Source of the DNA: Serratia sp. Ag1
Lineage (GTDB): Bacteria; Pseudomonadota; Gammaproteobacteria; Enterobacterales; Enterobacteriaceae
DNA: 49,997 nt
Reading direction: 5' to 3'
NCBI RefSeq assembly: GCF_000743355.1
Contig: NZ_JQEI01000032.1
Coordinates: forward strand, 1-49,997
Positions 16,530 to 33,607 of the stretch are shown in pieces. A program made the translations under genes and the position numbers. Position 1 is the first letter of the stretch. Each line of letters begins with the position of its first letter. The notes under the pieces were generated by a model. The model was not told the origin of the DNA. It saw only the letters and a program-made list of their open reading frames with translations, and did no database searches.

Positions 16530-16801
16530 TATACCCGTCATACTTCAAGTTGCTTGGGTGTTGGCTGCGTTACTCGGCCCATACTGGGCCTCGCCCCTTC
16601 GGGGCCGCTGCAAGCAGCGTTCAAATCTGCCAAGCAGATTTGTCACTCACCCCAGTCACTTACCTGAGTAAGCTCCTGGGGATTATGAGCCTCATAAATG
16701 AGGCTCACCCTGCGGGCCAGCGCAAGCGCTGTTCAAACCGGTCTTTGACCGGTTTGTCATTCGGTTGCCGCCTACAAGCAACTCGAATTATTTTGGGTAT
16801 A
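16530..16801. repeat. Expanded ERIC repeat (272 bp) inside proU
   Basis: Both ERIC ends are near perfect (TATACCCGTCATACTTCAAG and ACTCGAATTATTTTGGGTATA) and the core CCCCAGTCACTTAC...GTAAGCTCCTGGGG is present. The element is more than twice the usual 127 bp because hairpin-forming modules are inserted on both sides of the core: GCCCCTTCGGGGC, CAAATCTGCC...GGCAGATTTG-like arms, GAGCCTCATAAATGAGGCTC and AACCGGTCTTTGACCGGTTT. It occupies the whole proW-proX gap. Confidence 0.92.
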
Positions 16802-16812
16802 GATAAAGACGA

Positions 16813-17871: not shown

Positions 17872-19066
17872 GCGTTGGGCCCTCTTTATCTAAAGCCTGC
17901 AACAGCATGGCTTTGGAAATGATTCCGATATAGTTGTTCTCTTCCCCTACCACTGGCACGGCACAGGGAGCTTGCGCCACCAGTGAGATCAGCTCACTTA
18001 GTGGCATATCGGCTGGCACCGGTTGCGGGGCATCCAGCAGCGCATCATCCAGCGTTTGCTTGGCTGCCAGCGCCTGCTTGAGTGAATCTATCGACACCAC
18101 GCCGATAAATTTCTTGCCGCGTTCAACCACGTAACCATAATCACGGTCTTCTTCACGCAGCAGTTGCAGTGCTGAACGTGGGCCAAAACCGGGGGTTTTG
18201 CGAATCAACGTGACCGGGCGGCGTTGGGCGATATCTTTAGCACTGAAAACGTGGCTGATATCTACGCCACGGAAGAAGGTGCGCACGTAATCATTGGCCG
18301 GATTATTTAATATTTCATCCGGTGTTCCTACCTGAATCACTTCACCACCTTGCATAATGGCAATCCGATCGCCAATACGCATCGCTTCATCTAAATCGTG
18401 GGAAATAAATACAATGGTGCGCTGATGTTTTGCCTGTAATTTGACTAATTCATCCTGCATTTCGGTGCGGATTAATGGATCGAGCGCAGAGAAGGCTTCA
18501 TCCATTAACAATATATCCGGATTGTTCGCCAGAGCGCGGGCTAATCCTACCCGTTGACGCATACCACCAGAAAGTTCATCGGGATAAGCGTGAGCATAAT
18601 TCTCCAGGCCAACCTGATGCAATGCATCTAATGCTTTTTCCTGACGTTGCTGCAAAGATATACCTGCTAATTCCATGCCAAAGGCCGTATTATTTAATAT
18701 GTTCATGTGCGGCATTAAGGCAAATGACTGGAACACCATGCTGATCTTATTTCGCCGTACGGTACGCAACGCCGTATCGGATATTTGGGCAATATCTTCG
18801 CCATCAATCAGTACCTGACCGCGCGTGGGTTCTATCAGACGATTGAGAAGGCGTACCAGGGTGGATTTACCGGAACCGGAAAGCCCCATGATGACAAATA
18901 TCTCGCCTTCTTCAATGGCCAGAGAGGCGTTTTTTACGCCGATTGATAACCCTGTTTTTTCCCGTATCTGATCTTTTGTCAGATCGTGTTTAAGCAGCTT
19001 AAATGCCCGCTCCGGGTGTTCACCAAATATCTTATATAAGTTCTTTACTTCGAGTTTAATTGCCAT
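17864..19066 (-). CDS. proV: Glycine betaine ABC transporter ATPase ProV
   Basis: A 400-residue cytoplasmic ATPase. Walker A is [10 protein letters not shown] near residue 60, the signature [15 protein letters not shown] near 164, and Walker [14 protein letters not shown] near 184. After the ATPase domain come two CBS domains (about 280-395), which in related betaine transporters sense ionic strength. It is the promoter-proximal gene of proVWX. An AGGAA site lies 13 bases before ATG 19066, slightly farther than usual. The 5' coding part is AT-rich compared with its neighbours, matching the H-NS-binding downstream region known for E. coli proU. Confidence 0.96.
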
Positions 19067-19285: not shown

Positions 19286-20086
19286 TCAAAGCGTTGGCTC
19301 TTCAGCACTGGCCGAAGTGACCACCAATTCCACCTGTTGCTGTTGCAATAATGTTCCCAATGAAGGGGGCGGTGGAGTGTCGGTAAATAACGCCGTTACC
19401 TGGCGGGTATTGCCAATAGCGACCGCCGCAGAAGCATGGAATTTGGTGTGATCCGCTGCCAGCAGAATATGGCGTGAATGAGCCATCATTGCTTTCACCA
19501 CGCTGGACTCGTTGACATCGAACTCCAGCAAATCCCCATTAGCTTCGATCGCCCCGACGCTGGTAATCAGATAATCGGCGCGAAACCCTTCAACAAAAGT
19601 CATTGCACAGGGGCCGATAATGCCACCGTTATTCGGGCGCAGCGTGCCACCCGGCACCATCACTTCAAACTCGGTATTTTTATACAGAATATGCGCCACC
19701 CGCAGACTGTTGGTGATAATCCGCAGGTGGCTGTGATTCATCAGCGCCCGGGCGATATGCTCAACCGTGGTGCCGATGGTGATAAATACCGTGGAGCGAT
19801 CGGGAATGTAATCGGCGATCGCTTCCGCAATGGCGATTTTTTCTTCGGTGTAAGAGAGTTCACGCTGCTCAAAAGCGGTGTTTACCACGCTGGAAGCGCG
19901 CCCTGCGCCGCCGTGATGACGGGTAATCAGCCCCTGTTCGCTCAGCTTACGGATATCGCGCCGTACTGTCTGTGTTGAAACCGCCAGCAATTGGGCCAGT
20001 TCGTCGATATTCATGTAACCGCGCTTGGTGATCAACTGAATCAGCTGATCGTGGCGCGGGTTGCCGGTAAGTTCAGTCAGACTCAT
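19286..20086 (-). CDS. csqR: DeoR-family regulator of sulfoquinovose genes (CsqR/YihW)
   Basis: A 266-residue DeoR-type repressor matching E. coli YihW (CsqR) over its length. The N-terminal helix-turn-helix covers about residues 20-60 (LAQLLAVSTQTVRRDIRKLSE), followed by a sugar-phosphate-sensing DeoRC domain with FITIGTTVEHIARAL near 100 and EFDVNESSVVKAMM near 190. It is expected to repress the SQ cluster until SQ or an intermediate appears. The gene follows yihV after 37 bases on the same strand, so it is probably co-transcribed with the kinase. Both are divergent from yihU. Confidence 0.93.
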   Translation of the reverse strand: MSLTELTGNPRHDQLIQLITKRGYMNIDELAQLLAVSTQTVRRDIRKLSEQGLITRHHGGAGRASSVVNTAFEQRELSYTEEKIAIAEAIADYIPDRSTVFITIGTTVEHIARALMNHSHLRIITNSLRVAHILYKNTEFEVMVPGGTLRPNNGGIIGPCAMTFVEGFRADYLITSVGAIEANGDLLEFDVNESSVVKAMMAHSRHILLAADHTKFHASAAVAIGNTRQVTALFTDTPPPPSLGTLLQQQQVELVVTSASAEEPTL

Positions 20087-20123
20087 GTTTAGCTCTCTTA
20101 AATATTGTCATCAGTTGATCATC

Positions 20124-21020
20124 TTATACAAAACTGGCCAGGAAAGAGTCTGTTTGATCACAGTTGGGGATGCCTGCGCGCCCGCCGGGGCGGGTACACT
20201 TCAAGGCGGCAACGGCATTGGCATAGCGTACCGCCTGTGCGATATCCGGTTGCGAACCCAGTGCTACCGCCAACGCGCCGTGAAAAACGTCCCCTGCGCC
20301 GGTGGTATCCACCACCTCAACCTTAAAGCCCGGCTGATGTTTCAGCTGACCGTTTTCCAGCCAAAAACAACCTTGCTTTCCTTGAGTGACATAAACCTGT
20401 CCGTTTTTGTCATTTTTTGCTAACCGTAATCCTTTTTCTGCTGCGGTTTCTCCGGTCATTCGGGCCAAACCTGGTTCAGAGAAGGCGGCATGATCGGCCA
20501 GTGCTACCAGCGGACGGATGTCTTGCGGCGTTACGTCGGCATCCAGCAGTGTAGTCACTCCAGCGCGTTGCGCCAGTGTAAAAGCCGTCAGGGCTCCCTG
20601 ATGCCAGCGCACGTCAGCCAACACCACGTCATAGCGGCTAAAGTCGATCTCGTGCAGCCAGTCGGCATCTTCCGGCAGATCGGGGCTGGGGTGGTTGATA
20701 ATGATACGTTCACCCTGCGCATCCACCAGCACCGCCGACTGCGAAGATCGAGCCTGCGGGTAGCGGCGGGTATAACCGACATTAACGTCATAACTCTCCA
20801 GTTCTGCCAGCAACGTTCGCCCGGTGGCATCGTCGCCAACGCGGCCAATGAAATCGACCTCTGCACCCAGCTTAGCCGCTGCGACGGCGGCGGTTGCTGC
20901 GGGGCCACCGCCGATTTCTCGGTAATCGTTGGCGACATATTTCCCGCCCCCTTGTGGCAGTTTCTCCACGTAATACAAACGGTCTTGCACCGTAATACCT
21001 ACACAGGCAATGCGAGTCAT
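20124..21020 (-). CDS. yihV: 6-deoxy-6-sulfofructose kinase YihV
   Basis: A 298-residue PfkB-family (ribokinase-like) kinase that phosphorylates 6-deoxy-6-sulfofructose with ATP to the 1-phosphate. It matches E. coli YihV closely. The PfkB motifs GGGPAATAAVAAAKLGA (residue 37 on) and VVDTTGAGDVFHGALAVAL near 240 are present, the latter holding the catalytic Asp. Residues known from E. coli YihV to hold the sulfonate are in register by count: Lys27, Asn109 and Arg138. A GAGGA site precedes ATG 21020 by eight bases. This gene argues strongly for the sulfo-Embden-Meyerhof-Parnas route rather than a transaldolase or transketolase variant. Confidence 0.95.
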   Translation of the reverse strand: MTRIACVGITVQDRLYYVEKLPQGGGKYVANDYREIGGGPAATAAVAAAKLGAEVDFIGRVGDDATGRTLLAELESYDVNVGYTRRYPQARSSQSAVLVDAQGERIIINHPSPDLPEDADWLHEIDFSRYDVVLADVRWHQGALTAFTLAQRAGVTTLLDADVTPQDIRPLVALADHAAFSEPGLARMTGETAAEKGLRLAKNDKNGQVYVTQGKQGCFWLENGQLKHQPGFKVEVVDTTGAGDVFHGALAVALGSQPDIAQAVRYANAVAALKCTRPGGRAGIPNCDQTDSFLASFV

Positions 21021-21038
21021 AGTCTGGATCCTCTGTTG

Positions 21039-21164
21039 TATACCCGTCGTCTTTCAAGTTGCAGGGGTGTTGGCTGCCCTGACTCACCCAAGTCATTGAG
21101 TAATCTCAACTCCTTGGATTCGCTCGGTTGCCGCCTACCCGTACCTTGAAATCCATAGGGTATA
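21039..21164. repeat. ERIC repeat (126 bp)
   Basis: A near full-length ERIC element with ends TATACCCGTCGTCTTTCAAG and CCTTGAAATCCATAGGGTATA; the core is diverged. It lies in the divergent yihV-yihU promoter region, 18 bases from the yihV start, so the yihV promoter must lie inside or beyond it. Confidence 0.85.
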
Positions 21165-21245
21165 TGTTTCTGTTTCACTAAAACGGTTTGCGCCAAAAAG
21201 TGGTGGCCGATCACGATGCCACCATTTTAATTTTCTCAAATGTTA

Positions 21246-21267
21246 AAAGAGTGACGCGTGTCAATTT
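21246..21267 (+). promoter_or_regulatory. Candidate CRP site upstream of yihU
   Basis: AGTGA-CGCGTG-TCAAT within an A/T-rich frame resembles the CRP consensus (TGTGA-N6-TCACA), with the left half better than the right. It lies about 115 bases before yihU. Nearby, TTGTG-N12-CACAA around 21316-21340 is another inverted repeat that could be a CsqR operator. Neither is proven. Confidence 0.35.
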
Positions 21268-21371
21268 TTTGACCATAAATTACAAATACGATCAAAAACA
21301 GACATAAATGATCTGTATTGTGCGAGGTAAGTTGACACAAAACAGACAATCGTAACGAACAGGAGAGAACC

Positions 21372-22262
21372 ATGGCACAGATCGCATTCGTCGGGTTAGG
21401 GCAAATGGGGGCACCGATGGCCAGCAACCTGATTAAGCAGGGTCACCGGCTGAGCGTTTTTGATATCAGCCCAACGGCGGTCAGCGCTTTGGTGGCACAG
21501 GGGGCAACGGCGGCTGCCAGCCCGGCGCAGGCGGTACTGGACGCGGAATTTGTGATCACCATGCTGCCGAACGGCGATCTGGTGCGTGAGGTGTTGTTCG
21601 GCGCGGCTGGCGTGTGCAGCACGCTGTCGCCAGCGGCACTGGTGATCGACATGTCCACCATTCATCCGCTGCAAACTGACCGCTTAATCGCCGATATGCA
21701 GGCTCAGGGGTTCAGCCTGATGGATGCCCCGGTAGGGCGCACTTCCGATCACGCGCAGGCGGGCACTTTGTTGATTTTGGCCGGTGGTACCGCCGAGCAG
21801 GTACAGCGCGCCACGCCGGTACTGATGGCGATGGGGTCGGAATTGATCAATGCCGGTGGGCCGGGCATGGGCATCCGCGTGAAGCTGATCAACAACTACA
21901 TGAGCATTGCGCTTAATGCACTGTCTGCCGAAGCGGCGGTGCTGTGCGAAGCCTTGGGGCTGTCGTTTGACGTGGCGCTGCAGGTGATGAACGGCACTCC
22001 GGCAGGCAAAGGGCACTTCACCACCACCTGGCCGAACAAGGTGCTGAAGGGCGATCTCAGCCCGGCGTTCATGATCGATCTGGCGCACAAGGATTTAGGG
22101 ATTGCGCTGGATGTCGCTAACCAGTTGCACGTTGCCATGCCGTTGGGCGCGGCGGCGCGCGAAGTTTACAGCCAGGCACGCGCCAGCGGGCGTGGGCATC
22201 AGGATTGGAGCGCCATTCTGGAACAGGTTCGTTCCGCTTCCGGTCTGGCAGGCAAACATTGA
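21372..22262 (+). CDS. yihU: Sulfolactaldehyde 3-reductase YihU
   Basis: A 296-residue beta-hydroxyacid dehydrogenase reducing 3-sulfolactaldehyde with NADH to 2,3-dihydroxypropane-1-sulfonate, the excreted end product. It is close to E. coli YihU. The Rossmann motif [18 protein letters not shown] starts at residue 7; by count Arg123, Lys171, Asn174 and Ser178, which form the active site and sulfonate pocket in E. coli YihU, are all conserved. An AGGAGA site precedes the ATG. It is the first gene of the plus-strand SQ operon. Confidence 0.95.
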
Positions 22263-22308
22263 TTGATGACACAAGCGCCTGATGTTCAGCGCGCATAGGG
22301 GAGAGAAA

Positions 22309-23172
22309 ATGCCTTATTTATCCGGTTACACCATGGTCCAGCACGCGTGGAAAAACGGCTACGCCATTGGTGCTTTCAGCGCTCATAACGCCGAAACCAT
22401 TCGCGCCATTTTGCTGGCCGCCGAGCAGGAACAGGCACCGATCATGATTCAGGTGGGCCAGAAAGTGATCAGCGTGATGGGCTTAGAGCCGATGAAAGCG
22501 ATGATCGATGCTTTTATGCAGGACATTACCGTGCCGGTGTGTGTCCACCTCGATCACAGCCGCAGCTTTGCGCAAACCATGCAGGCGGTACAGGCAAGGT
22601 TCCAGTCGGTGATGTTTGACGGCTCACATCTGTCATTCGACGAAAACGTGCGGATCACCCGCGCGGTGGCGGATGTGGCTCACGCGCTGAATATTGGGGT
22701 GGAAGGGGAGATCGGCAAGATCGGCGGCACTGAAGACGACATCTCGGTGGATGAAAAAGACGCCCTGATCACCACCAGCGATGAAGCGTTGAAGTTTTCC
22801 GAACTGACCACCGTGGACTATCTGGCGGTATCGATTGGTACGGCGCACGGTTTGTACAAGCAAGAACCCCGGCTGGCATTTGAACGCCTGCATGAGATCC
22901 GTGAGATCGTCCGCAAGCCTATCGTGTTGCACGGTGGTTCCGGCGTGCCGGATGAGCAGATCCGCAAGGCAGTAGCGCTGGGGGTCGCCAAGATCAACGT
23001 GGATACCGAACTGCGTCAGGCGTTTACCCTAGGTGTGGCTGAGGTGCTGAACAAAGACCCTGAAGAGTTTGTGCTGGCGGTTTCGCTTGGTCGCGGGCGT
23101 GATGTGATGAAGGAAAGAGTGGTCGAAAAAATCCGGTTATTCGGCAGCCACGGCAAGGCCGTGCTGTTTTAA
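22309..23172 (+). CDS. Class II aldolase, likely sulfofructose-1-phosphate aldolase
   Basis: A 287-residue class II (zinc) aldolase of the GatY/KbaY/FbaA family. Metal and catalytic residues are visible: Asp82 and His83 in HLDHS, Glu132/Glu134 in EGEIGKIGG, His180 in SIGTAHGLYK and His208 in VLHGGSGVPDE. It sits at the position that yihT has in E. coli, between yihU and the isomerase/epimerase genes, but YihT is a class I Schiff-base enzyme of another fold. The inference is that this enzyme cleaves sulfofructose-1-phosphate to DHAP and sulfolactaldehyde. A class II aldolase (SqiA) in a sulfo-EMP variant is recalled from the literature but was not checked. ATG 22309 has a GGGGAGAG site; an in-frame ATG nine codons earlier lacks one. 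Tagatose- or fructose-bisphosphate aldolase is the alternative. Confidence 0.82.
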   Translation: MPYLSGYTMVQHAWKNGYAIGAFSAHNAETIRAILLAAEQEQAPIMIQVGQKVISVMGLEPMKAMIDAFMQDITVPVCVHLDHSRSFAQTMQAVQARFQSVMFDGSHLSFDENVRITRAVADVAHALNIGVEGEIGKIGGTEDDISVDEKDALITTSDEALKFSELTTVDYLAVSIGTAHGLYKQEPRLAFERLHEIREIVRKPIVLHGGSGVPDEQIRKAVALGVAKINVDTELRQAFTLGVAEVLNKDPEEFVLAVSLGRGRDVMKERVVEKIRLFGSHGKAVLF

Positions 23173-23222
23173 GCATCTGTTGTTGCGCGGCGTCGTGTCG
23201 CGCTAACCATAAGGTTCAAGCT

Positions 23223-24266
23223 ATGACAACCATTCAACGTCAGCATTTTGGTGAACATCAAGGGCAGGCGGTTTCTCTGTTCACGCTGAGCAATGCCAAC
23301 GGTATGCGGCTGTGTGTGACTGACTACGGCTGCATCATTACCCAACTGTGGGTGCCAGATCGGCACGGGCAGGCAGAAGACATCGTGATGGGGTTTGACA
23401 ATCTGGCTGCTTACCAGGCTGGGCACCCGTTCTTTGGGGCAATTGCCGGGCGCTGTGCCAACCGCATCGCCGGGGGGCGCTTCAAGATTGATGGCCAGGA
23501 ATACGTGTTAGCGACCAATGAATTGACCACCGGCCAACATCTGCACGGTGGTGCGCGGGGTTTTGACAAGTATGTCTGGCAGGCGCAGGAAGACGGCGAC
23601 GGCATTATTTTCAGCCGCACTTCTGCCGACGGCGAGGAAGGCTATCCGGGCAATTTGCAGGTTCGTCACCGTATTGGCCTGACCGAAGACAACGTGATGA
23701 CGTTGAGCTTTGAGGCGCAAACCGATAAACCGACGCTGGTTAACCTGGTCAATCACAGCCACTACAACCTGCGTGGCCATACGCATCTGATCCACGATCA
23801 GCAGCTCAAGATCGAAGCCGATTTCATCACTCCGGTGGATGAAACCACCATGTTGCCCACTGGTGAGATCCGCCGCGTGGCGGGGACGGCGTTTGATTTC
23901 CGCAATGCTCGCCGTTTGGGGGATGCGATGCTGCACCGCCCGGCACAAGACTTTGACATGAACTATGTGCTTAAACCTGGCGACGGCGCGCTGCACCCGG
24001 CAGCCAGCCTGATTTGCCCGCACAGCGGGCGCGTGATGGAAGTCCATACCTCGTTGCCGGGCATGCAGTTTTACAACGCCTTCAAGCTCTCCAACAAGGT
24101 CTGGAACGGCAAAGCCGGGCATCGCTATCAGGCGTTTTCCGGTATCTGCCTGGAAACGCAGGCGTTCCCCGACAGCATTCACCACGCCCACTTCAGCAAC
24201 GTGGTGTTACGCCCTGGCGAACAGTATCACAGTTGCACCGAGCACCGTTTCAGCACCGTGGCATAG
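23223..24266 (+). CDS. Aldose 1-epimerase (GalM type), likely sulfoquinovose mutarotase
   Basis: A 347-residue aldose 1-epimerase with the GalM pattern: GAIAGRCANRIAGGRF near residue 76, HLHGGARGFD near 108, the catalytic His in NLVNHSHYNLRG near 178, and the catalytic Glu in CLETQAFPDS near 316. It should interconvert alpha and beta anomers of the free sugar. In this cluster the natural task would be anomerising SQ released by YihQ, the job of YihR in E. coli. By sequence it looks nearer to ordinary GalM than to YihR, as far as can be judged by eye. Codon use is GC-richer than in the 32-35 kb region and like its operon neighbours. Confidence 0.78.
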   Translation: MTTIQRQHFGEHQGQAVSLFTLSNANGMRLCVTDYGCIITQLWVPDRHGQAEDIVMGFDNLAAYQAGHPFFGAIAGRCANRIAGGRFKIDGQEYVLATNELTTGQHLHGGARGFDKYVWQAQEDGDGIIFSRTSADGEEGYPGNLQVRHRIGLTEDNVMTLSFEAQTDKPTLVNLVNHSHYNLRGHTHLIHDQQLKIEADFITPVDETTMLPTGEIRRVAGTAFDFRNARRLGDAMLHRPAQDFDMNYVLKPGDGALHPAASLICPHSGRVMEVHTSLPGMQFYNAFKLSNKVWNGKAGHRYQAFSGICLETQAFPDSIHHAHFSNVVLRPGEQYHSCTEHRFSTVA

Positions 24267-24303
24267 CCTTTGATGAATTTCACCGATTACTGGAAGCAAT
24301 ATA

Positions 24304-25647
24304 ATGACAAATAAAGCAAAAGTCGGCGTATTGGCGTTAGGCCGCAACACCTTTGATGTGCCCTATGCACAAGAAATGTTGGCGCAAGCCTGGCATACGC
24401 TCGAAGGCATGGATGTCGAACTGGTGGGGGAACCGATGCTGCAATTTGATGCGGCATCGGCCCTGCAAGCGCTGCCCACGCTCAAGCAGGCAGATCTCGA
24501 TCTGCTGCTGATCCTGCAAGTGACCTTTACCGATGCCTCGCTGACTACCGAAGTGGTGCGTGACTTCCCGGTGCCAACGGCGCTGTGGTCATTCCCCGAA
24601 GCGCGTACCGGTGGCCGCTTACGGCTGAATTCGTTCTGCGGGGTGAATCTGGCTTGCCATGCGCTGAGCCGTGAGGCGATCAAGGTGCAGACTTTGCACG
24701 GTCTGCCGAGTGATCAGCGTGTGATCAATGAATTACAGCAGTTGGCGCAGGCAGCGGCGATCGTCAAGCGTTTCAAACAGGCGAAAGTGATGGTGATCGG
24801 CGAGCATCCGCTGGGTTTTGACGCCTGTAACTACAACCAGCAGCAACTGAAACAACACTTTGGCGTGGAAGTGACGCGTCAGCCAGTGCTGGAGTTTATC
24901 GACGAAGTAAAAGCGTTGCCAGACAGCGTGGCCGATGCGCCTTATGCCCGCCGCGCCAAAGACTTCTCCAATCTGGCCGAAATGGACCAGACCGCCACCC
25001 GTAAAACTCTCAAGGTTTACTCGGCCCTGCGTGAAAAAGCGCAGCGCGAAGGTTACAACGGCATTGCCGTGCGTTGCTGGCCGGACTTTTTCACCGATTA
25101 CGGCTGTGCCGCCTGCGGCGCGCTGGCGCTGATGAACGAAGACCAAGTGCCGTGCGGCTGCGAAGCCGACATGTTTGGCGTGCTGTCCTCACTGATGGCG
25201 CAGTGGGCTTCCGGCAATGCGGCGTTCAACACCGATCTGGTGGATATCGATCCGCAGGACAACAGCGTGGTGTTCTGGCACTGCGGCCAGGCGCCGATTG
25301 AAATGGCCGATCGCGATGGCCCGGTGCAGGCCACTATTCACTCTAACCGCAAGCTGCCACTGCTGTCTGAGTTTGCCCTCAAACCTGGGCGCATCACGCT
25401 GTGCCGCATTACCCAAGGGGAGGGCAAACTGCGCCTGATGCTGGCTGGGGGCGAGATGATCAAGGCTCCGCTGGCGTTTTCCGGCACCGCCGGGACGGCC
25501 CGTTTGGATGTGGATGCCGACACCTACCGCCAGCGGTTAATCGCCGCCGGGATGGAGCATCACACTTCGCTGGTGTACGGCGAACATCGCCCGCTGCTGC
25601 GCAAAGTCGCTGATTTGCTGGGGCTGGACGTGATCGAACTGACCTGA
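24304..25647 (+). CDS. Fucose-isomerase-family sugar isomerase, likely sulfoquinovose isomerase
   Basis: A 447-residue protein of the L-fucose/arabinose isomerase fold. Likely Mn2+ ligands are Glu287 in GCEADMFG, an Asp of VDIDPQD (314 or 316) and His326 in FWHCG, the usual Glu-Asp-His set. The YihS isomerase of E. coli (an N-acylglucosamine 2-epimerase-fold enzyme) is missing from the cluster, so this protein most likely converts SQ to sulfofructose. Fucose-isomerase-like SQ isomerases (SqvD) are recalled from Gram-positive SQ pathways; the link here is by context. It lies 38 bases after the epimerase and 53 bases before yihQ in the same operon. Another aldose-ketose isomerase activity cannot be excluded. 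Confidence 0.8.
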   Translation: MTNKAKVGVLALGRNTFDVPYAQEMLAQAWHTLEGMDVELVGEPMLQFDAASALQALPTLKQADLDLLLILQVTFTDASLTTEVVRDFPVPTALWSFPEARTGGRLRLNSFCGVNLACHALSREAIKVQTLHGLPSDQRVINELQQLAQAAAIVKRFKQAKVMVIGEHPLGFDACNYNQQQLKQHFGVEVTRQPVLEFIDEVKALPDSVADAPYARRAKDFSNLAEMDQTATRKTLKVYSALREKAQREGYNGIAVRCWPDFFTDYGCAACGALALMNEDQVPCGCEADMFGVLSSLMAQWASGNAAFNTDLVDIDPQDNSVVFWHCGQAPIEMADRDGPVQATIHSNRKLPLLSEFALKPGRITLCRITQGEGKLRLMLAGGEMIKAPLAFSGTAGTARLDVDADTYRQRLIAAGMEHHTSLVYGEHRPLLRKVADLLGLDVIELT

Positions 25648-25700
25648 TGCATGGAAACGCTTTGGGAAAATACCGCATTTAACCTTTTGGAGAATTAAAG

Positions 25701-27728
25701 ATGACTTCTCAGCAAGGCTTGGAACTGACGCAACACGCAGGTGGCTTCACCCTGACTTTTCAGCAGCGCGTGCTGCTGCGCCATACCCCTGATGCACCCT
25801 GCCTGTGGATCGGGCGCGGCAAGGCGGATATCGACATGTTCCGTGGCAACTTCAGCATCAAAGATCAGCTCAGCGAAAAACTGGCGCTGGCCGAGGTTCA
25901 CATCACCCCGCAGGGGCAGGGCTGGAACATCCGTTTCAGCCGTGGCGATGTGGCGCACAGTACGCTGCACATCACCACCGATGCGCAAGGGCGGCTGGAA
26001 ATGCAGTTGCACAATAGCGATCAGACCAACAACCGTATGTGGTTGCGTTTGGCCGCTCAGCCGCAGGATCACGTTTACGGCTGTGGTGAGCAGTTTTCTT
26101 ACTTCGATCTGCGCGGCAAGCCGTTCCCATTGTGGACCAGCGAACAGGGCGTGGGCCGCAACAAGCAGAGCTATGTGACCTGGCAGGCCGACTGTAAAGA
26201 GAACGCTGGCGGCGACTATTACTGGACGTTCTTCCCACAGCCAACCTTTGTCAGCAGCCAGAAGTACTACTGCCATGTGGAAAATAGCTGCTACATGAAT
26301 TTTGACTTCTCTGCCGCTGAGTTCCACGAACTGGCGATCTGGCAGGATCAGGCGGTGCTGCGTTTTGACTGCGCCGACAGCTATATCGGCCTGCTGGAGA
26401 AACTCACCGCGCTGCTGGGCCGCCAGCCGGAGTTGCCGGACTGGGTGTATGACGGGGTGATCCTCGGCATTCAGGGCGGCACAGAAGTGTGTCAGCAGAA
26501 GCTGGATCTGATGCGTGAACACGGCGTTAAGGTCAGCGGTATCTGGGCGCAGGATTGGGAAGGCCGCCGTATTACTTCTTTCGGCAAGCGCCTGATGTGG
26601 AACTGGCGTTGGGACAGCGAACTGTACCCCGAACTGGATAAGCGTATTCCCCAGTGGAAGAAAGAAGGCGTGCGCTTCCTTGGCTACATCAACCCTTATG
26701 TGGCGATCGAGAAAGAGCTGTATGCCGAAGCTGCTGAGCAAGGCTATCTGACCAAAGATTACAGCGGCAACGATTATCAGGTGGAGTTTGGCGAGTTCTA
26801 CGCCGGGGTGGTCGATCTCACTAAACCGGAAGCCTATGACTGGTACAAGAACGTCATTAAAAAGAACCTGATTGAATTCGGCCTCGACGGCTGGATGGCC
26901 GATTTTGGCGAATACCTGCCAACTGACACCGTGATGCACAACGGCGTGGATGCGGAGATCATGCACAACGCCTGGCCTGCGCTGTGGGCCAAGTGCAACT
27001 ACGACGCGCTGGTGGAAAGCGGCAAGCTGGGGGAGATCCTGTTCTTTATGCGCGCAGGCTACACCGGCAGCCAGAAATACTCGGTGATGATGTGGGCCGG
27101 GGATCAGAACGTCGACTGGAGCCTGGACGACGGCTTGGCCTCGGTGATCCCGGCGGCGCTGTCGCTGGCGATGACCGGCCATGGTCTGCACCACAGCGAC
27201 ATCGGTGGTTATACCACGCTGTTTGAGATGAAGCGTAGCAAGGAACTGCTGATGCGCTGGTGTGAATTCTGTGCCTTTACGCCGCTGATGCGCACCCACG
27301 AGGGCAACCGCCCGGACGATAACTGGCAGTTTGATCACGATGTGGAAACCATTCGCCAGTTCGCCCGCATGAGCCGGGTGTTTAGCGCCATGAAGCCGTA
27401 CATCAAACAGGCGGTGGCGCTGAACTCGCAATCCGGTTTGCCGGTGATGCGCCCGCTGTTCCTGCATTACGAAGACGATGCCCACACTTACAACCTGAAA
27501 TATCAATACCTGTTTGGTCGCGAGCTGCTGGTGGCTCCGGTACATGAAGAAGGGCGCAGCGATTGGACGCTCTATCTGCCGCAGGATAACTGGATCAACC
27601 TGTGGACCGGTGAACCGCACAGCGGCGGGTGTGAAGTGACGGTCGCCGCGCCAATCGGTCAGCCGCCGGTATTTTACCGTGCCAGCAGCGAGTGGGCCGG
27701 GCTGTTTGCCTCATTAAAAGCGTTGTAA
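25701..27728 (+). CDS. yihQ: Sulfoquinovosidase YihQ (GH31)
   Basis: A 675-residue GH31 alpha-glycosidase that releases SQ from sulfolipid glycosides such as sulfoquinovosyl glycerol. It matches E. coli YihQ nearly end to end with a four-residue offset. The nucleophile is Asp401 (WMADFGEYLPTD) and the acid/base Asp468 (WAGDQNVDW). All recognised sulfonate-binding residues are present: Gln284, Arg297, Trp300 and Tyr504. These separate true sulfoquinovosidases from ordinary alpha-glucosidases. No signal peptide is seen, so the enzyme is probably cytoplasmic and glycosides must be imported. Ribosome binding site GGAG lies nine bases before the ATG. Confidence 0.97.
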   Translation: MTSQQGLELTQHAGGFTLTFQQRVLLRHTPDAPCLWIGRGKADIDMFRGNFSIKDQLSEKLALAEVHITPQGQGWNIRFSRGDVAHSTLHITTDAQGRLEMQLHNSDQTNNRMWLRLAAQPQDHVYGCGEQFSYFDLRGKPFPLWTSEQGVGRNKQSYVTWQADCKENAGGDYYWTFFPQPTFVSSQKYYCHVENSCYMNFDFSAAEFHELAIWQDQAVLRFDCADSYIGLLEKLTALLGRQPELPDWVYDGVILGIQGGTEVCQQKLDLMREHGVKVSGIWAQDWEGRRITSFGKRLMWNWRWDSELYPELDKRIPQWKKEGVRFLGYINPYVAIEKELYAEAAEQGYLTKDYSGNDYQVEFGEFYAGVVDLTKPEAYDWYKNVIKKNLIEFGLDGWMADFGEYLPTDTVMHNGVDAEIMHNAWPALWAKCNYDALVESGKLGEILFFMRAGYTGSQKYSVMMWAGDQNVDWSLDDGLASVIPAALSLAMTGHGLHHSDIGGYTTLFEMKRSKELLMRWCEFCAFTPLMRTHEGNRPDDNWQFDHDVETIRQFARMSRVFSAMKPYIKQAVALNSQSGLPVMRPLFLHYEDDAHTYNLKYQYLFGRELLVAPVHEEGRSDWTLYLPQDNWINLWTGEPHSGGCEVTVAAPIGQPPVFYRASSEWAGLFASLKAL

Positions 27729-27745
27729 CTATAAGAAACTGTCAG

Positions 27746-27773
27746 CCGCCATTAGCTCAACCGGCAATGGCGG
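27746..27773 (+). other. Intercistronic hairpin yihQ-yihP
   Basis: CCGCCATT and AATGGCGG form a perfect 8-bp stem with a 12-nt loop, 18 bases after the yihQ stop. There is no T run, so it is more likely an mRNA-stabilising or processing hairpin than a terminator. Confidence 0.55.
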
Positions 27774-27810
27774 CAACCTCGGGACGGGGTGTTTTCCAAG
27801 GAGAATCACC

Positions 27811-29208
27811 ATGAGTGAAGTTAACCAGGATCCAGTCAAGCTGACATTGCCGCTGCGCGAGAAGTTTGCCTATGGCATGGGCGATGTCGGTTCTAACCTG
27901 CTGTTATGTGTGGGTACGCTATACCTGCTGAAGTTTTATACCGACGTGCTGGGCATCCCAGCCGCATGGGGTGGGTTGATCTTCCTGATCTCCCGCTTTT
28001 TTACCGCCTTTACCGATATCGGCACCGGGCTGATGCTGGATTCGCGGCGCAATATCGGCCCCAAAGGCAAGTTCCGGCCATTTATTCTGTACGCCTCAAT
28101 GCCGGTGGCGCTGCTGGTGGTTGCCAACTTTATCGGCGTTGGCATATCGCTCGACGTGCTGGCGAAAACGGTGATTGCCACGCTGATCTTTATGGCATTC
28201 GGGTTGTTTTTCAGCATGATGAACTGCTCCTACGGCGCAATGGTGCCTGCGATGACTAAAAACCCGCAGGAACGTGCGCAACTGGCCGCCTGGCGTCAGG
28301 GCGGGGCGACGGTCGGGCTGTTGCTGTGTACCGTCGGGTTTGTGCCGATCCTATCGCTGTTTGAAGGCCAAGCGCAGGTAGGTTATCTGGTGGCGGCGGC
28401 GATCTTCGCGTTTGTTGGCATGCTGTGCATGTGGTGGTGCTATTCCGGCGTTAAAGAACGCTACGTCGAATTGCCGAAACCGGGTGCGCCAAAGCCGGGC
28501 CTGCTGCAATCCTTTAAAGCGATTACCGGTAATAAGCCGCTGTTCGTGTTATGCGTTGCCAACCTGTGCACGTTGGCCGGGTTCAACATCAAGCTGGCGA
28601 TCCAGATCTACTACACCCAATACGTGCTTAACGATATCACCCTGCTGTCTTACATGGGGTTTTTCAGCATGGGTTGTATTCTGCTCGGCGTGCTGCTGGT
28701 GCCGACGGTGGTGAAACGCTTTGGCAAGAAAAACGTCTATCTGGGCGGTTTGTCACTGTGGATCCTCGGCGATGCCATGAATTACCTGTGGGGTAATACC
28801 TCTACGCTGTTTGTGCTGTTCTCCTGCCTGGCATTCTTTGGCACCGCTTTCGTTAACAGCCTCAACTGGGCGCTGGTGTCCGATACCGTGGAATATGGCG
28901 AATGGAAAACCGGCGTGCGTTCTGAAGGCACGGTTTATACCGGCTTTACCTTCTTCCGTAAGGTTTCCCAAGGGTTGGCCGGTTTCTTTCCTGGCGTGAT
29001 GCTGGCCTATATCGGCTATGTGCCTAACGTGGAACAAGGTGCCAGTACGCTGGAAGGGCTGCGGCAACTGATCTTTATCTACCCTTGCGGGCTGGCGGTG
29101 CTGACGGCATTGACCATGGGCCTGTTCTACCACCTGACGGAGAGGAACTACCTCAAGATTGTGGATGAGTTGGAAACCCGCAAGCGCAAGATGAACCCGG
29201 CAGTGTAG
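27811..29208 (+). CDS. yihP: GPH-family sulfosugar/sulfonate transporter (YihP position)
   Basis: A 465-residue, about 12-segment transporter of the glycoside-pentoside-hexuronide:cation symporter family. Family signatures are FAYGMGDVGSNLLLCVGTLYL near residue 18, LDSRRNIGPKGKFRPFI near 75 and AAWRQGGATVGLLL near 160. It occupies the yihP position directly after yihQ. In the E. coli model YihO imports SQ or its glycosides and YihP exports dihydroxypropanesulfonate; the direction here is not visible from sequence. It is roughly 65-70% identical by eye to the next gene, so the two are paralogues. AAGGAGA precedes the ATG. Confidence 0.85.
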   Translation: MSEVNQDPVKLTLPLREKFAYGMGDVGSNLLLCVGTLYLLKFYTDVLGIPAAWGGLIFLISRFFTAFTDIGTGLMLDSRRNIGPKGKFRPFILYASMPVALLVVANFIGVGISLDVLAKTVIATLIFMAFGLFFSMMNCSYGAMVPAMTKNPQERAQLAAWRQGGATVGLLLCTVGFVPILSLFEGQAQVGYLVAAAIFAFVGMLCMWWCYSGVKERYVELPKPGAPKPGLLQSFKAITGNKPLFVLCVANLCTLAGFNIKLAIQIYYTQYVLNDITLLSYMGFFSMGCILLGVLLVPTVVKRFGKKNVYLGGLSLWILGDAMNYLWGNTSTLFVLFSCLAFFGTAFVNSLNWALVSDTVEYGEWKTGVRSEGTVYTGFTFFRKVSQGLAGFFPGVMLAYIGYVPNVEQGASTLEGLRQLIFIYPCGLAVLTALTMGLFYHLTERNYLKIVDELETRKRKMNPAV

Positions 29209-29280
29209 ACAGAGGCAACCTGCAGCTCCGTTTATAGCAGGCCATCGCAGCGATGGGGAAACGGGTTAAAAAATAATAAA

Positions 29281-29298
29281 AGCCTATTCAGATAGGCT
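29281..29298 (-). other. Small hairpin after yihP
   Basis: AGCCTAT / ATAGGCT with a TCAG loop; on the minus strand it is followed by TTTATTATTTTTT, a terminator form pointing against the operon. On the plus strand there is no T tract, so read-through to yihO is expected. Confidence 0.5.
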
Positions 29299-29299
29299 A

Positions 29300-29426
29300 T
29301 CAGATTGCTGACAAAGCCCGTTATTAGGGAGAGCGTGCCGAAGGGGTCGTAGCGGCGTGAGCCGCCGGAGCGCCCCTCGGTGCGCTAGGCCCGGGTATCT
29401 CGGATTAACAGCCACTTTGTCATCAA
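29300..29426. repeat. MITE-like palindromic repeat, copy B
   Basis: This 127-bp segment is the reverse complement of 8741-8868 with only a few differences and one single-base indel. Its ends are (T)TGCTGACAAAG and CTTTGTCATCAA, imperfect terminal inverted repeats. It lies inside the SQ operon between yihP and yihO, where its palindromic structure would form a large hairpin in the transcript. Confidence 0.88.
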
Positions 29427-29447
29427 TCTCCTACGAGGACATGGTAT

Positions 29448-30884
29448 ATGGCCAACTCATTACCTTACAACGATCCCGTCACGCTGCGGCTGCCGCTGCG
29501 TGAAAAGCTGGCCTACGGCATGGGGGACTTCGGTTCTAACCTGATGCTGTGCATTGGCACGCTGTATCTGCTGAAATTCTATACCGATATTTTGGGATTA
29601 CCCGCGATCTACGGCGGTGTGATCTTTCTGATTGCCAAGTTCTTTACCGCCTTCACCGATATGCTGACCGGCGTGTTGCTGGATTCGCGGCGTAATATCG
29701 GTGCCAAAGGCAAATTCCGGCCCTTTATTTTTTATGCTTCACTGCCAGTGGCTTTGCTGGCGGTGGCTAACTTTTTCAATAGCGGCTTCAACCTGAACGG
29801 CAAAACCATATTGGCCACCGTGCTGTTTATGTTGTTCGGCCTGTTTTATAGCCTGATGAACTGTGCCTACGGGGCGATGGTGCCTGCTATCACCAAGAAC
29901 CCGCAGGAACGGGCGCAACTGGCTGCCTGGCGGCAAGGTGGGGCCACGCTCGGGTTATTGCTGTGCACTGTCGGGTTCGTACCGATCCAGTCGCTGTTTA
30001 CTGCTCGCCCAGAGATCGGCTATCTGGCGGCGGCCATGGTGTTTGCTACCTGCGGCGTGTTCTGCATGTGGTGGTGCTATGCCGGGGTGAAAGAGCGCTA
30101 TGTGGAAGTGGTACCGGATCACCATAAACCGGGGATCTTCAAGTCCTTCTGCGGCATTTTCAAAAACCCACCGCTGCTGGTGCTGTGTATCGCCAACCTG
30201 TGTACGCTGGCGGCGTTTAACATCAAGCTGGCGATCCAGGTTTATTACACGCAGTACGTGTTGCACGACATCCGTCTGCTGTCCTATATGGGCTTTTTCA
30301 GCATGGGCTGCATTCTGATTGGCGTACTGATGGTGCCAGCGGCGGTGAAACGCTTCGGCAAGAAGCGCGTCTATCTCGGCGGATTGCTGCTGTGGGGCCT
30401 GGGCGATGTGCTGAACTACGGTTGGGGCAACAGTTCCGTCTCTTTCGTGGCGTTCTCCTGTATGGCATTTTTTGGCACCGCGTTTGTGAACAGCCTGAAC
30501 TGGGCGCTGGTATCAGATACCGTCGACTATGGTGAATGGAAAACTGGCATCCGCACGGAAGGCTCGGTCTACACCGGTTATACCTTCTCGCGCAAGATCT
30601 CCGCTGCGCTGGCGGGGTTGCTGCCGGGGATTATGCTGACGCAAATTGGTTATGTTCCGAATGTTGTGCAGTCACCAGCGGTGCTGGAGGGTTTGCGACA
30701 GTTGATTTTTATTTATCCCTGCCTATTGGCGATGGTGGCTGCAATTATGATGGGGGCTTTCTATAAATTAAATGAGCAACTATTTATGCAGATAATAAAT
30801 GAAATTAATCTGCGTAAAAACAATCACGGTAAGGATATAACTTTTCAGCCGGTAGTTAACACACAAGCCATCAAAGAAGTTTAA
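29448..30884 (+). CDS. yihO: GPH-family sulfoquinovose transporter YihO
   Basis: A 478-residue GPH-family transporter that fits E. coli YihO better than the preceding gene: GDFGSNLMLCIGTLYLLKFY near residue 26, FFTAFTDMLTGVLLDSRRN near 65 and YTGYTFSRKISAALAG near 380 agree with it. It is the likely inner-membrane importer of SQ or its glycosides. GAGGA lies before the ATG. The C-terminal coding region after about 30700 turns AT-rich compared with the rest, a change of base use near the operon end. An ERIC element follows and separates it from ompL. Confidence 0.9.
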   Translation: MANSLPYNDPVTLRLPLREKLAYGMGDFGSNLMLCIGTLYLLKFYTDILGLPAIYGGVIFLIAKFFTAFTDMLTGVLLDSRRNIGAKGKFRPFIFYASLPVALLAVANFFNSGFNLNGKTILATVLFMLFGLFYSLMNCAYGAMVPAITKNPQERAQLAAWRQGGATLGLLLCTVGFVPIQSLFTARPEIGYLAAAMVFATCGVFCMWWCYAGVKERYVEVVPDHHKPGIFKSFCGIFKNPPLLVLCIANLCTLAAFNIKLAIQVYYTQYVLHDIRLLSYMGFFSMGCILIGVLMVPAAVKRFGKKRVYLGGLLLWGLGDVLNYGWGNSSVSFVAFSCMAFFGTAFVNSLNWALVSDTVDYGEWKTGIRTEGSVYTGYTFSRKISAALAGLLPGIMLTQIGYVPNVVQSPAVLEGLRQLIFIYPCLLAMVAAIMMGAFYKLNEQLFMQIINEINLRKNNHGKDITFQPVVNTQAIKEV

Positions 30885-30898
30885 TTATTAAAAATAGC

Positions 30899-31025
30899 TA
30901 TACCCAAAATAATTCGAGTTGCTTGTAGGCGGCAACTGAGCGAAGCCCCAGGAACTTACTCAAGTAAGTGACTGGGGTGAGTGAGGGCAGCCAACACCCA
31001 AGCAACTTGAAGTATGACGGGTATA
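30899..31025. repeat. Full-length ERIC repeat (127 bp)
   Basis: A canonical ERIC of exactly the usual 127 bp, with ends TATACCCAAAATAATTCGAG and AGTATGACGGGTATA and the core CTCAAGTAAGTGACTGGGGT. It lies between yihO and ompL within the SQ cluster. Confidence 0.97.
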
Positions 31026-31086
31026 TACCGCCATGCGCGATTGCACGGCGGCGAGTTATTTTATCCAGACTATTTGGGAAATCAAA

Positions 31087-31782
31087 ATGAATAAAGCTAA
31101 ATTATTACTGTTGATTACGTCATTAATCGCTTCAGCCAGTGCCCAGGCCGGGCGCGCTTATCTGGAAACCCGTGAGGCATACAACACCGCTTCGGAATTG
31201 AATGAGGTTATCCTGCGCGCAGGGTATAATTTTGACGGCGGTGCCGGAGTGATGGCCACTAATGCTTATAATATCGGCAAATTTGATCAGTTGAACCATA
31301 GCTATAATGAGCTGGAGGGCTGGTATCCGCTGTTCCGCCCGACGGAGCAATGGACGGTTTCTTCGGGCGGATTGGTCAACGCCAACAGTGCTGGCTCCGG
31401 TGGGGCGCTTTATCTGGATAACAACTATAAATTCCTACCCATGTTTAATCTGACCGTGCGTTACCGTTATAACCGCAGTAATTATGACTCCATCGACTTT
31501 AACGGCCAACCGGCACGCAATGATACCCATGAATTTGCCAGTTACTGGAATTTTAAAGTCACTGACGAGCTTAACTATACCTTCGAGCCACATTACTTTA
31601 TCCGGGTAAATGATTTCCACAGTAAAAATGGAAAAGGTCATCACTGGGAGATTACCAATAAATTCAGCTATAAAATAGACACCCACTGGATGCCTTATTT
31701 AGAACTGCAATGGTTAGATCGCTGGTTGGATTATAATGCAGAACAATACCGTATCCGTGTGGGGCTGCGTTATACCTTTTGA
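31087..31782 (+). CDS. ompL: Outer-membrane porin OmpL (KdgM family)
   Basis: A 231-residue small porin with a clear signal peptide (MNKAKLLLLITSLIASASAQA, cut before GRAYLE). The mature part is rich in alternating aromatic/polar strands and ends in a C-terminal Phe (GLRYTF), the outer-membrane assembly signal. Size and pattern fit the KdgM/NanC/OmpL group of oligosaccharide-specific 12-stranded channels. E. coli has ompL (yshA) at the same end of its yih cluster; here it would admit SQ or sulfoquinovosyl glycerol. ATG 31087 is chosen because it opens the signal peptide; the frame open from 31033 starts inside the leader. Confidence 0.9.
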   Translation: MNKAKLLLLITSLIASASAQAGRAYLETREAYNTASELNEVILRAGYNFDGGAGVMATNAYNIGKFDQLNHSYNELEGWYPLFRPTEQWTVSSGGLVNANSAGSGGALYLDNNYKFLPMFNLTVRYRYNRSNYDSIDFNGQPARNDTHEFASYWNFKVTDELNYTFEPHYFIRVNDFHSKNGKGHHWEITNKFSYKIDTHWMPYLELQWLDRWLDYNAEQYRIRVGLRYTF

Positions 31783-32049: not shown

Positions 32050-32508
32050 CTAAATAAACAGATCTGCTGGAACATTAAAACGCGCAGCCAGAGCTTTTAT
32101 ATGTTGAACTGTTAATGCGCGGCGGCCATTCAAAATGTTGCTCACATTACTTTTGGACCCCAGTTCATCGGCCAGATCTGCTGGTTTGAGTCCATATTGG
32201 TCCATTAGAGTGCGTAAAGCTGCAATACCATCAGGGATCTCGGCTATACGGTGGTTGAAACTCTCAAATTCCGGTGCATTTTGTTCATATTCAGCTATTT
32301 TCGCCGCTAGCGGTTCAAACAACGGGTTGCTCAAATCATCCCTATCGATAAGGTATTCGATCAGTTCAAGGGCTTTTTTATACTCTGCCGCGCTTTTACC
32401 GCCTGCCATAAGCGGAATGCATTTCACTGCGTTGACGAATGTGGCGATCATGCCTTCTGCAGTAGTTGCATCGATGCCGTTTTTGCTGTTGTGAGATGCA
32501 ATAGTCAT
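32050..32508 (-). CDS. higA: HigA-type antitoxin (XRE HTH)
   Basis: A 152-residue antitoxin of the HigA (YgjM-like) type. The N-terminal ~85 residues are a helical region and the C-terminal part a helix-turn-helix (YGLKPADLADELGSKSNVSNILNGRRALTV, about 105-137 in segments), ending with RFNVPADLFI. It neutralises HigB and represses the operon through the operators upstream of higB. Its ATG overlaps the higB stop by four bases (translational coupling). The toxin-first order is typical of hig loci. Confidence 0.9.
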   Translation of the reverse strand: MTIASHNSKNGIDATTAEGMIATFVNAVKCIPLMAGGKSAAEYKKALELIEYLIDRDDLSNPLFEPLAAKIAEYEQNAPEFESFNHRIAEIPDGIAALRTLMDQYGLKPADLADELGSKSNVSNILNGRRALTVQHIKALAARFNVPADLFI

Positions 32509-32816
32509 TCTTTATGCTCCCTATAATACTTGGTTAACTTGTCGTATTCGGCATGAGTAATAATGTGTTTAACAAAAAGCTTATGTTTTTCAAAATCAAT
32601 GAAAGCTATAAGACGCAATGTATTACCAGATACATCAATGACCCACCACTTTTTACGATGCTTGAAGTTGTCTAAAGACTGGATCACTGTTTTCATTTCG
32701 TCTGGGCTACCGAAATTATGCTTCTCCAAAACCCTCATCAAATCAAAAAGCGCCAGTTCGCTGTTCGGAAATTTATTGGCTGCCTCGTTAAACGGCTGTC
32801 TGCTGATCACATGCAA
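32505..32816 (-). CDS. higB: HigB-type mRNA interferase toxin
   Basis: A 103-residue RelE-superfamily toxin of the HigB/YgjN type, expected to cleave mRNA on translating ribosomes. It matches the E. coli YgjN pattern: an opening HVISRQPFNEAANKFPNSE, FGSPDEMKTVIQSLDNFKH near residue 37, and RLIAFIDFEKHKLFVKHI then THAEYDKLTKYY at the end. The start is TTG at 32816 with a GAGGG site upstream; a GTG two codons later is possible. A TTG start may keep toxin synthesis low. The operon is small, AT-richer than its neighbours and flanked by an ERIC, suggesting mobility. Confidence 0.9.
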   Translation of the reverse strand: MHVISRQPFNEAANKFPNSELALFDLMRVLEKHNFGSPDEMKTVIQSLDNFKHRKKWWVIDVSGNTLRLIAFIDFEKHKLFVKHIITHAEYDKLTKYYREHKE

Positions 32817-32903: not shown

Positions 32904-33590
32904 TTAAACCTTACGATACAACCGCCGTGGATGGCCGATATTGCCGTATAGCATCTCGACGCGTACGAACTGCGTGGCGACACAGTGCTCCAGGTAGCGG
33001 CGCGCGGTGGTTTTGCTGATGCCGACCTGCTCAACGACATCTTCTACCGCATGTGCGACATCCGGTTGATTAATGAATAACGCCTTTACCAGTTCCAGCG
33101 TGTTGGCTTCGATCCCTTTAGTACCGGTTTCGCTAGAAAACTGTTTGGCGTGCAGGTTATACAGTGCATCAACATTGCTCTGATCGATCACTTTGAACGT
33201 GCGCTGCGTCTGAGCAAACTGGATAAAGCGCTCCAATGAATTGCGTAGCCGATGGTAAGACACCGGTTTGATAATATAGTCGAACGCGCCGTTGCGGATC
33301 GCCTGGCTGCAGGTGTGCATATCGCTGGCCGCAGTGATGAAGATCACTGAACAGGCCGGGTTTTTCACCGCCGCTTCTTCCATCAGTGTAATTCCTTGAC
33401 CATCCGGCAGAAAATTGTCCAGCAGGATCAGGCGCGGTTGATGAACGTTAACTTTGGTTTTGGCTTCTGCCAGCGTGGCGGCATGGGCAATGACCCGCAG
33501 GTTAAAATTCTTCTCGAGAAATTCAGTATGCAGTGTGGCTAACTGCGGCTCATCTTCCACGATCAGAACGTCCAGTGTTTCATGTTGCAT
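32904..33590 (-). CDS. CitB/DcuR-type response regulator
   Basis: A 228-residue response regulator. The receiver domain (about 1-125) has the acidic pocket VEDEPQ at 11-16, the phosphoacceptor Asp58 in LLDNFLPDG and Lys near 107 in YIIKPVSYH. The C-terminal part has a helix-turn-helix (AVEDVVEQVGISKTTARRYLEH near 180) as in CitB, DpiA and DcuR, which control di- and tricarboxylate uptake. It follows the kinase gene after 17 bases. The probable target is the divergent 2-hydroxycarboxylate transporter. Confidence 0.9.
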   Translation of the reverse strand: MQHETLDVLIVEDEPQLATLHTEFLEKNFNLRVIAHAATLAEAKTKVNVHQPRLILLDNFLPDGQGITLMEEAAVKNPACSVIFITAASDMHTCSQAIRNGAFDYIIKPVSYHRLRNSLERFIQFAQTQRTFKVIDQSNVDALYNLHAKQFSSETGTKGIEANTLELVKALFINQPDVAHAVEDVVEQVGISKTTARRYLEHCVATQFVRVEMLYGNIGHPRRLYRKV

Positions 33591-33607
33591 AGAGTGAGTC
33601 CGGGGGC

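Follow-up and report, generated by a model that had tools for sequence, protein, structure and literature searches.

A predicted sulfoquinovose cluster of Serratia sp. Ag1 with SqiA-, GalM- and SqvD-type enzymes at three contiguous steps of a yih-type gene order

Can a gene cluster that keeps the organisation of the Escherichia coli yih cluster, and in which three contiguous genes encode different enzymes, still degrade sulfoquinovose (SQ), a sulfur-containing sugar of plants, and how might it have arisen? The question is raised by positions 19286-31782 of contig NZ_JQEI01000032.1 from Serratia sp. Ag1, within the 49,997-nucleotide stretch of DNA that was analysed (hereafter the window). Open reading frame calls place ten genes here, arranged as two divergent units: the minus strand carries csqR-yihV, and the plus strand carries yihU-sqiA-galM-sqvD-yihQ-yihP-yihO-ompL. 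We infer all enzyme activities and the regulation of the cluster, and consider it very probable that it is a catabolic operon for SQ and SQ glycosides, encoding a hybrid of the sulfo-Embden-Meyerhof-Parnas (sulfo-EMP) and sulfo-EMP2 pathways.

The proteins shared with E. coli strain CFSAN018748 (locus L017), the reference used for all E. coli identities, are 60-81% identical to their counterparts. These are the DeoR-type regulator CsqR (yihW-type; 19286-20086, minus strand; 78%, Pfam HTH_DeoR and DeoRC), the sulfofructose kinase YihV (20124-21020, minus strand; 72%, PfkB family PF00294), the sulfolactaldehyde reductase YihU (21372-22262, plus strand; 81%, 557.7 bits on NF012005 with a cut-off of 348), and the sulfoquinovosidase YihQ of family GH31 (25701-27728, plus strand; 77%, 1147.8 bits on NF007746 with a cut-off of 553). 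They are followed on the plus strand by two GPH symporters, of the YihP type (27811-29208; 72% to YihP, 67% to YihO) and the YihO type (29448-30884; 74% to YihO, 69% to YihP), and by the porin OmpL (31033-31782; 60%, 347 bits on NF007434 with a cut-off of 288). YihU, YihQ, and OmpL thus pass NCBIfam equivalog cut-offs. Residues K27, N109, and R138 of YihV, R123, N174, and S178 of YihU, and Q284, R297, W300, and Y504 of YihQ, all of which we take to be sulfonate binders, align with the same residues in E. coli. The retained yih organisation and the intact pocket residues, both put forward in an original prediction made from the sequence, were thereby borne out. The intergenic region between yihV and yihU (21021-21371) is the probable site of CsqR control, judging from its position and the E. 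coli arrangement. By its YihV and YihU orthologues, found with CsqR in one locus, the cluster belongs with the sulfo-EMP (yih) clusters; a YihS-family isomerase and a class I YihT aldolase are absent from it.

At the yihT position lies a gene for a class II, or metal, aldolase (22282-23172, plus strand; PF01116), as had been predicted. Its product gave no match at E ≤ 1 to any of ten E. coli yih proteins, and was 84.0% and 82.2% identical to PDB chains 8q57 and 8q58, respectively. We take both chains to be sulfofructose-1-phosphate aldolases; the PDB listing gives them the names kbaY and ketose-bisphosphate aldolase. Chain 8q57 in turn shares 99.7% identity with the Yersinia aldovae ATCC 35236 aldolase (locus L147), which is encoded in a cluster of the same gene order. 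The sequences HLDH at residues 89-92, GTAHG at 186, and VLHGG at 215 are presumably metal-site motifs, and activity of class II aldolases on sulfofructose-1-phosphate was reportedly measured by Sharma in 2023. As a PF01116 protein close to solved 8q57 and 8q58, the enzyme can be placed with SqiA, and would cleave sulfofructose-1-phosphate in a metal-dependent manner. Its translation probably starts at 22309 rather than at the annotated 22282, because homologues begin at the M of MPYLSG (MPYVSG in 8q58 and MSYVSG in 8q57) and the annotated start adds nine residues.

The next gene (23223-24266, plus strand) encodes an aldose 1-epimerase (PF01263) of the GalM type. This mutarotase passes the galactose-1-epimerase subfamily NF008277 (262.3 bits; cut-off 240), and reaches 22.6 bits on the aldose-1-epimerase model NF011719, which we take to be the YihR model, versus a cut-off of 251. 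It is 22% identical to E. coli YihR over 183 residues, indicating that it is not a YihR orthologue, and 61% identical to a homologue on a Zymomonas plasmid. It is assumed to have a role in the pathway.

The third gene (24304-25647, plus strand) encodes an isomerase of family PF02952. Against the E. coli yih proteins at E ≤ 1, only a chance 28-residue piece of YihR was aligned (E 0.66), and no solved structure was related to the isomerase by sequence at E ≤ 0.001. A structure model predicted from an alignment of 34 rows (mean predicted local distance difference test score 93.8) matched E. coli L-arabinose isomerase AraA (2ajt; template-modelling score by query 0.83) and E. coli L-fucose isomerase FucI (1fui; 0.80). 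Residues E287, D311, H419, and H420, presumably the counterparts of the FucI metal ligands and candidate ligands here, do not vary across the 34 aligned rows, as would be expected of a metal-dependent aldose-ketose isomerase. With the predicted fucose/arabinose isomerase fold and these conserved candidate ligands, the protein is assigned as an SqvD/SftI-like SQ isomerase. The predicted occurrence of a GalM-type epimerase and a fucose-isomerase-family protein at the yihS/yihR positions therefore agrees with the family matches and the modelled fold. That only two enzymes had been swapped does not: three contiguous steps differ, since the mutarotase is of the GalM type rather than YihR. E. coli has the order yihT-yihS-yihR after yihU, whereas the Serratia order is aldolase, mutarotase, isomerase, so that the last two stand opposite to yihS-yihR.

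We compared this cluster with other genomes in a sample of 392 from the GTDB family of Serratia sp. Ag1. The csqR-to-yihQ order was identical in 13 of 13 hybrid loci (the Serratia sp. Ag1 cluster and L048-L059), each continuing with two GPH symporters, and ompL was present in seven of them; because of this shared order, the cluster is neither a chance arrangement nor an assembly join. The arrangement itself is thus real, and the observation is confirmed. Named carriers are Serratia oryzae, Serratia sp. H1w, Serratia microhaemolytica, Yersinia frederiksenii, Y. alsatica, Y. aldovae, and three Chimaeribacter species, several of them being the same genomes as in the family sample. The YihV, YihU, and YihQ pocket residues are kept in all 13 loci; outside the hybrid loci a few of them are changed, for instance the first YihQ position, where four of nine outside loci have E in place of Q. 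Within the genus of Serratia sp. Ag1, six of seven genomes carry the isomerase at an identity of at least 94.6%. Counted at E ≤ 1e-50, SqvD occurs in 10 of the 392 genomes and YihS in 59, none having both. Eight of the 59 YihS genomes have matches of 41-47% only; four of these weak loci were examined (L076-L079), and no yih neighbours were found in them except a 30% CsqR-like match in L076.

On this basis, the following route can be proposed. OmpL and YihO/YihP would bring the substrate in, and perhaps let the product out. YihQ would release alpha-SQ, whose ring opening or anomerisation would be assisted by the GalM-type mutarotase. The metal-dependent SqvD-type isomerase would then convert open-chain SQ to sulfofructose, and phosphorylation by YihV would give sulfofructose-1-phosphate. 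This would be split into dihydroxyacetone phosphate and sulfolactaldehyde by the class II SqiA-type aldolase, also metal-dependent, and YihU would reduce the latter to dihydroxypropanesulfonate, which would be exported. CsqR would control both divergent units. The reading originally offered, in which SqvD- and SqiA-type enzymes serve in a hybrid sulfo-EMP route, is also the best one here and agrees with published work.

Several points weigh against it. The aldolase passes only the broad cbbA subfamily of NCBIfam and no equivalog cut-off. The isomerase scores 290.8 bits on the SftI model NF048012, whose cut-off is 700, so it appears to be a distant SftI/SqvD relative outside that equivalog, and because the score lies well below the cut-off, its substrate is read from context. 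The mutual exclusion of SqvD and YihS is weak, as about 1.5 shared genomes would be expected by chance. A search of the Serratia genome with E. coli YihT, which gave no match at E ≤ 0.001, had no positive control in the same tool. This last point touches the alternative that YihS and YihT orthologues encoded elsewhere carry out the two steps, with an aldolase and an isomerase in the cluster that are inactive or moonlighting, a condition under which the original prediction would have failed. The YihS family PF07221 had no match at E ≤ 0.001 in the Serratia genome (it matches two of 14 control genomes), nor had E. coli YihS at the same threshold (the same query matches 59 of the 392 family genomes). 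Together with the YihT search, and with the aldolase-mutarotase-isomerase order kept in 13 of 13 hybrid loci, these results make that alternative exceedingly improbable. The cluster might instead serve a different 6-sulfo sugar, such as sulfofucose or a sulfonated ketose, the replaced enzymes reflecting a changed stereochemistry. Such a substrate would suit the galactose type of the mutarotase, the isomerase score below the SftI cut-off, and the existence of tagatose-type enzymes among class II ketose-bisphosphate aldolases. The SQ-pathway pocket residues of YihQ, YihV, and YihU in all hybrid loci speak against it, as does 8q57, which comes from the homologous Y. aldovae cluster and which we take to be a sulfofructose-1-phosphate aldolase. 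A Vibrio hybrid with SqiA degrades SQ according to the available text of PMC13372026. We consider another sugar quite unlikely, and SQ very probably the substrate.

How the three genes came to stand among yih genes is a separate matter. The original prediction described a replacement in place. For gene order this stands; for the chromosomal site it does not. The Serratia genome has dtd, yihY, yihX, and typA side by side (L204), leaving the E. coli cluster site empty, and the cluster adjoins proVWX. Within the examined stretches, dtd, yihY, yihX, or typA adjoin the cluster in 10 of 17 canonical loci (L017 and nine of the 16 others, L060-L075) and in none of the 13 hybrid loci. Adjacency to proV is found in five of the 13, all of the Serratia sp. 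Ag1 genus. Among the canonical loci, yihR adjoins yihS in 11 of 17.

Other combinations of aldolase and isomerase occur around the same genes. Outside the family, SqiA accompanies a YihS-type isomerase (68-72% identical to E. coli YihS) in six loci (L188, L190-L194), alongside CsqR, YihV, and YihU; these loci look Vibrio-like and of the same kind as the published Vibrio SqiA hybrid. YihT and YihS are combined in L184, L186, L187, and L189. Two Pseudovibrio loci (L090 and L136) carry SqiA and SqvD with csqR-yihV-yihU, and thus outside Enterobacterales; the L136 isomerase frame is short or broken in its record. We also scanned genome contigs for SqvD, with a prefilter on two peptide patterns. 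Among the best 80 of 96 loci, 42 have SqvD with a YihT-like aldolase of only 25-30% identity, which by similarity would be class I, and 36 of these 42 also have a YihV-like kinase. From this mix of combinations it follows that the aldolase and the isomerase have been exchanged separately as well as together.

The same sqiA-galM-sqvD run is present on plasmid pZZM402 of Zymomonas mobilis ZM4 (NC_013785.1; L009 128-11361 and L211 10958-11854), where SqiA, GalM, and SqvD are 72, 61, and 69% identical to the Serratia sp. Ag1 proteins. Across the record start from this run lies a divergent PfkB kinase, 63% identical to Serratia YihV, with K27, N109, and R138 intact. A Gfo/Idh/MocA protein and a succinate-semialdehyde dehydrogenase-like dehydrogenase are encoded nearby. 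From its genes the set looks like a plasmid-borne SQ pathway, perhaps one ending in sulfolactate. We did not find it in print in a search that covered subscription journals thinly, and it is possibly new.

A core tree of CsqR, YihV, and YihU contained a clade of the 17 canonical loci (support 100/97), one of nine Serratia/Yersinia hybrids (100/100), and one of four Chimaeribacter hybrids with L195 (98/92); the order of the forks was not resolved. The next outgroup within the order comprises five rows, of which four have YihT and YihS and two are long branches, and beyond it stand SqiA with YihS, SqiA with SqvD, and AwWohl with SqvD. The fewest changes on this tree were three for the isomerase and five for the aldolase. 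In a tree of YihV only, canonical L074 falls with Chimaeribacter at 87/88, breaking the canonical clade. A single origin of the 13 hybrids on the core tree, as against two origins, had p 0.055 in an approximately unbiased test.

Gene trees of SqvD, SqiA, and GalM were built from chosen subsets of the scan loci, with rows whose frame reached at least 70% of the query length; among those that fell below this were the isomerase of Y. aldovae L147 and both the isomerase and the mutarotase of Pseudovibrio L136, short open frames in their records. Firmicutes SqvD and SqiA were not among the sequences. In the SqvD tree, a group of the enterobacterial and Zymomonas plasmid enzymes (91/85) is followed by AwWohl with Betaproteobacteria, next by Mailhella, and then by Pseudovibrio/Cohaesibacter; enterobacterial and Zymomonas enzymes are grouped in the GalM tree too (99/98). 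Both reject a clade of the 13 hybrids alone (p 0.021 for SqvD and 0.018 for GalM), because the Zymomonas copy groups with the Serratia/Yersinia ones. In the SqiA tree, the 13 enterobacterial hybrids lie on one side of a branch (91/84) with Zymomonas outside. A YihV tree including Zymomonas, computed with L185, L189, and L075 left out, did not reject one clade of the 13 hybrids and Zymomonas (p 0.39), nor one of the nine Serratia/Yersinia hybrids and Zymomonas (p 0.36); in the best tree, Zymomonas stands outside the family. Among the best 80 of 96 SqvD scan loci, no title names Firmicutes, although one says only 'bacterium'. The closest relatives found are proteobacterial, and a Gram-positive origin of SqvD and SqiA is not supported by this sampling.

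Two histories can be drawn from these data. We tentatively suggest, at somewhat less than even odds, that sqiA-galM-sqvD is a ready-made module that changes places en bloc with yihT-yihS-yihR, the csqR-yihV-yihU-yihQ genes being retained; the E. coli set would then be one lineage's version and not the ancestral one. With the same kinase, all four pairings of aldolase and isomerase are found, the class I enzyme paired with SqvD being related to YihT only distantly; the Zymomonas plasmid carries the module as well. It is also conceivable, at similar odds, that the hybrid represents an ancient cluster lineage of Proteobacteria which spread whole, that YihT, YihS, and YihR of E. coli are the swapped version, and that nothing was replaced in the Serratia line. 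The Pseudovibrio clusters outside Enterobacterales fit such a history, and the loci with SqiA and YihS or with SqvD and the distant YihT-like aldolase, the hybrid chromosomal sites other than that of E. coli, and the unrejected YihV clade of all hybrids with Zymomonas also count in its favour. A further hint that the E. coli set is derived comes from pairwise identities: Serratia YihV, YihU, and YihQ are 72-81% identical to E. coli versus 62-74% to Chimaeribacter. This polarity was not upheld by the core tree, and we keep it as a rival only. The nearest outgroup, mostly with YihT and YihS, and the open order of the enterobacterial forks speak against an old hybrid lineage, and therefore replacement in the hybrid line, the direction implied by published accounts, is at least as likely.

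Two related loci have a different content. In L185 (5529-13889) and L195 (5616-14190), csqR-yihV is divergent from yihU, which is followed by SqiA in L185 and by YihT in L195. Further genes encode a zinc alcohol dehydrogenase, two transporters of the major facilitator superfamily type, and a YihR/GalM-like epimerase; YihS, SqvD, and YihQ were not found in the examined stretches of either locus. Possibly another sulfosugar enters there via the dehydrogenase. L195 sits at the E. coli typA-yihX site.

The flanks of the Serratia cluster (14155-19066 and 32904-36883) hold, to one side, proVWX and a ygaY-like gene of the major facilitator superfamily and, to the other, a CitAB-like two-component pair plus a citrate/sodium-type symporter; these names are our own attributions from the translations. 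A small minus-strand gene pair just beyond ompL (32050-32816) presumably is a HigBA-type toxin-antitoxin module, to judge from its resemblance to one.

The hybrid arrangement is already known from Serratia, Hafnia, Yersiniaceae and, in part, Vibrio. The original prediction had held the combination to be unusual in an enterobacterium, which its appearance in print contradicts, and because of these published examples the present cluster adds little as a discovery. In its available text, a 2022 review (PMC9594981) describes a Yersiniaceae cluster with SqvD and SqiA in place of YihS and YihT. The available part of a 2024 paper (PMC10991401) reports SqvD and SqiA in the yih cluster of Hafnia paralvei AVS0177 and Serratia fonticola DSM 4576, with a gene between sqiA and sqvD that is probably not YihR (approximately 20% identity). 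Hybrid sulfo-EMP1/2 sets across Proteobacteria and Actinobacteria are described, after Sharma 2023, in the portion available of PMC12890257. The available text of PMC12965863 and PMC8873060 contributed nothing about the arrangement. The cluster illustrates clearly how a pathway can be retained although the chemistry of its steps changes: according to the available text of PMC9594981, divalent metals are needed by SqvD, SqiA, and putatively SqvB but not by YihS, YihT, or YihR. It also implies that genome searches for yihS and yihT only will miss SQ degraders, such as the 10 of 392 genomes with SqvD, none of which is among the 59 with YihS.

Compared with the E. coli sulfo-EMP cluster, the order of csqR-yihV divergent from yihU and of yihQ-yihP-yihO-ompL is kept, whereas sqiA-galM-sqvD stands in place of yihT-yihS-yihR and the chromosomal site differs. 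The cluster matches the published S. fonticola, H. paralvei, and Yersiniaceae hybrids in having SqvD for YihS and SqiA for YihT, and those of S. fonticola and H. paralvei also in the middle gene, which there is probably not yihR, and by description, the basis of this comparison, no difference appeared from the available parts of those accounts. The Vibrio hybrid, studied by proteomics and with an isomerase mutant (available text of PMC13372026), likewise has an SqiA-type aldolase in an otherwise E. coli-like cluster; that text names only the aldolase as replaced, and L188 and L190-L194 keep the YihS-type isomerase. With the Firmicutes sulfo-EMP2 pathway of SqvD, SqiK, and SqiA (PMC9594981, available text), the Serratia cluster shares the isomerase and aldolase families. 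It is not itself such a pathway, as its kinase is YihV (PfkB, PF00294) rather than PfkA-family SqiK (PF00365), and its mutarotase is of the GalM type (PF01263) rather than SqvB.

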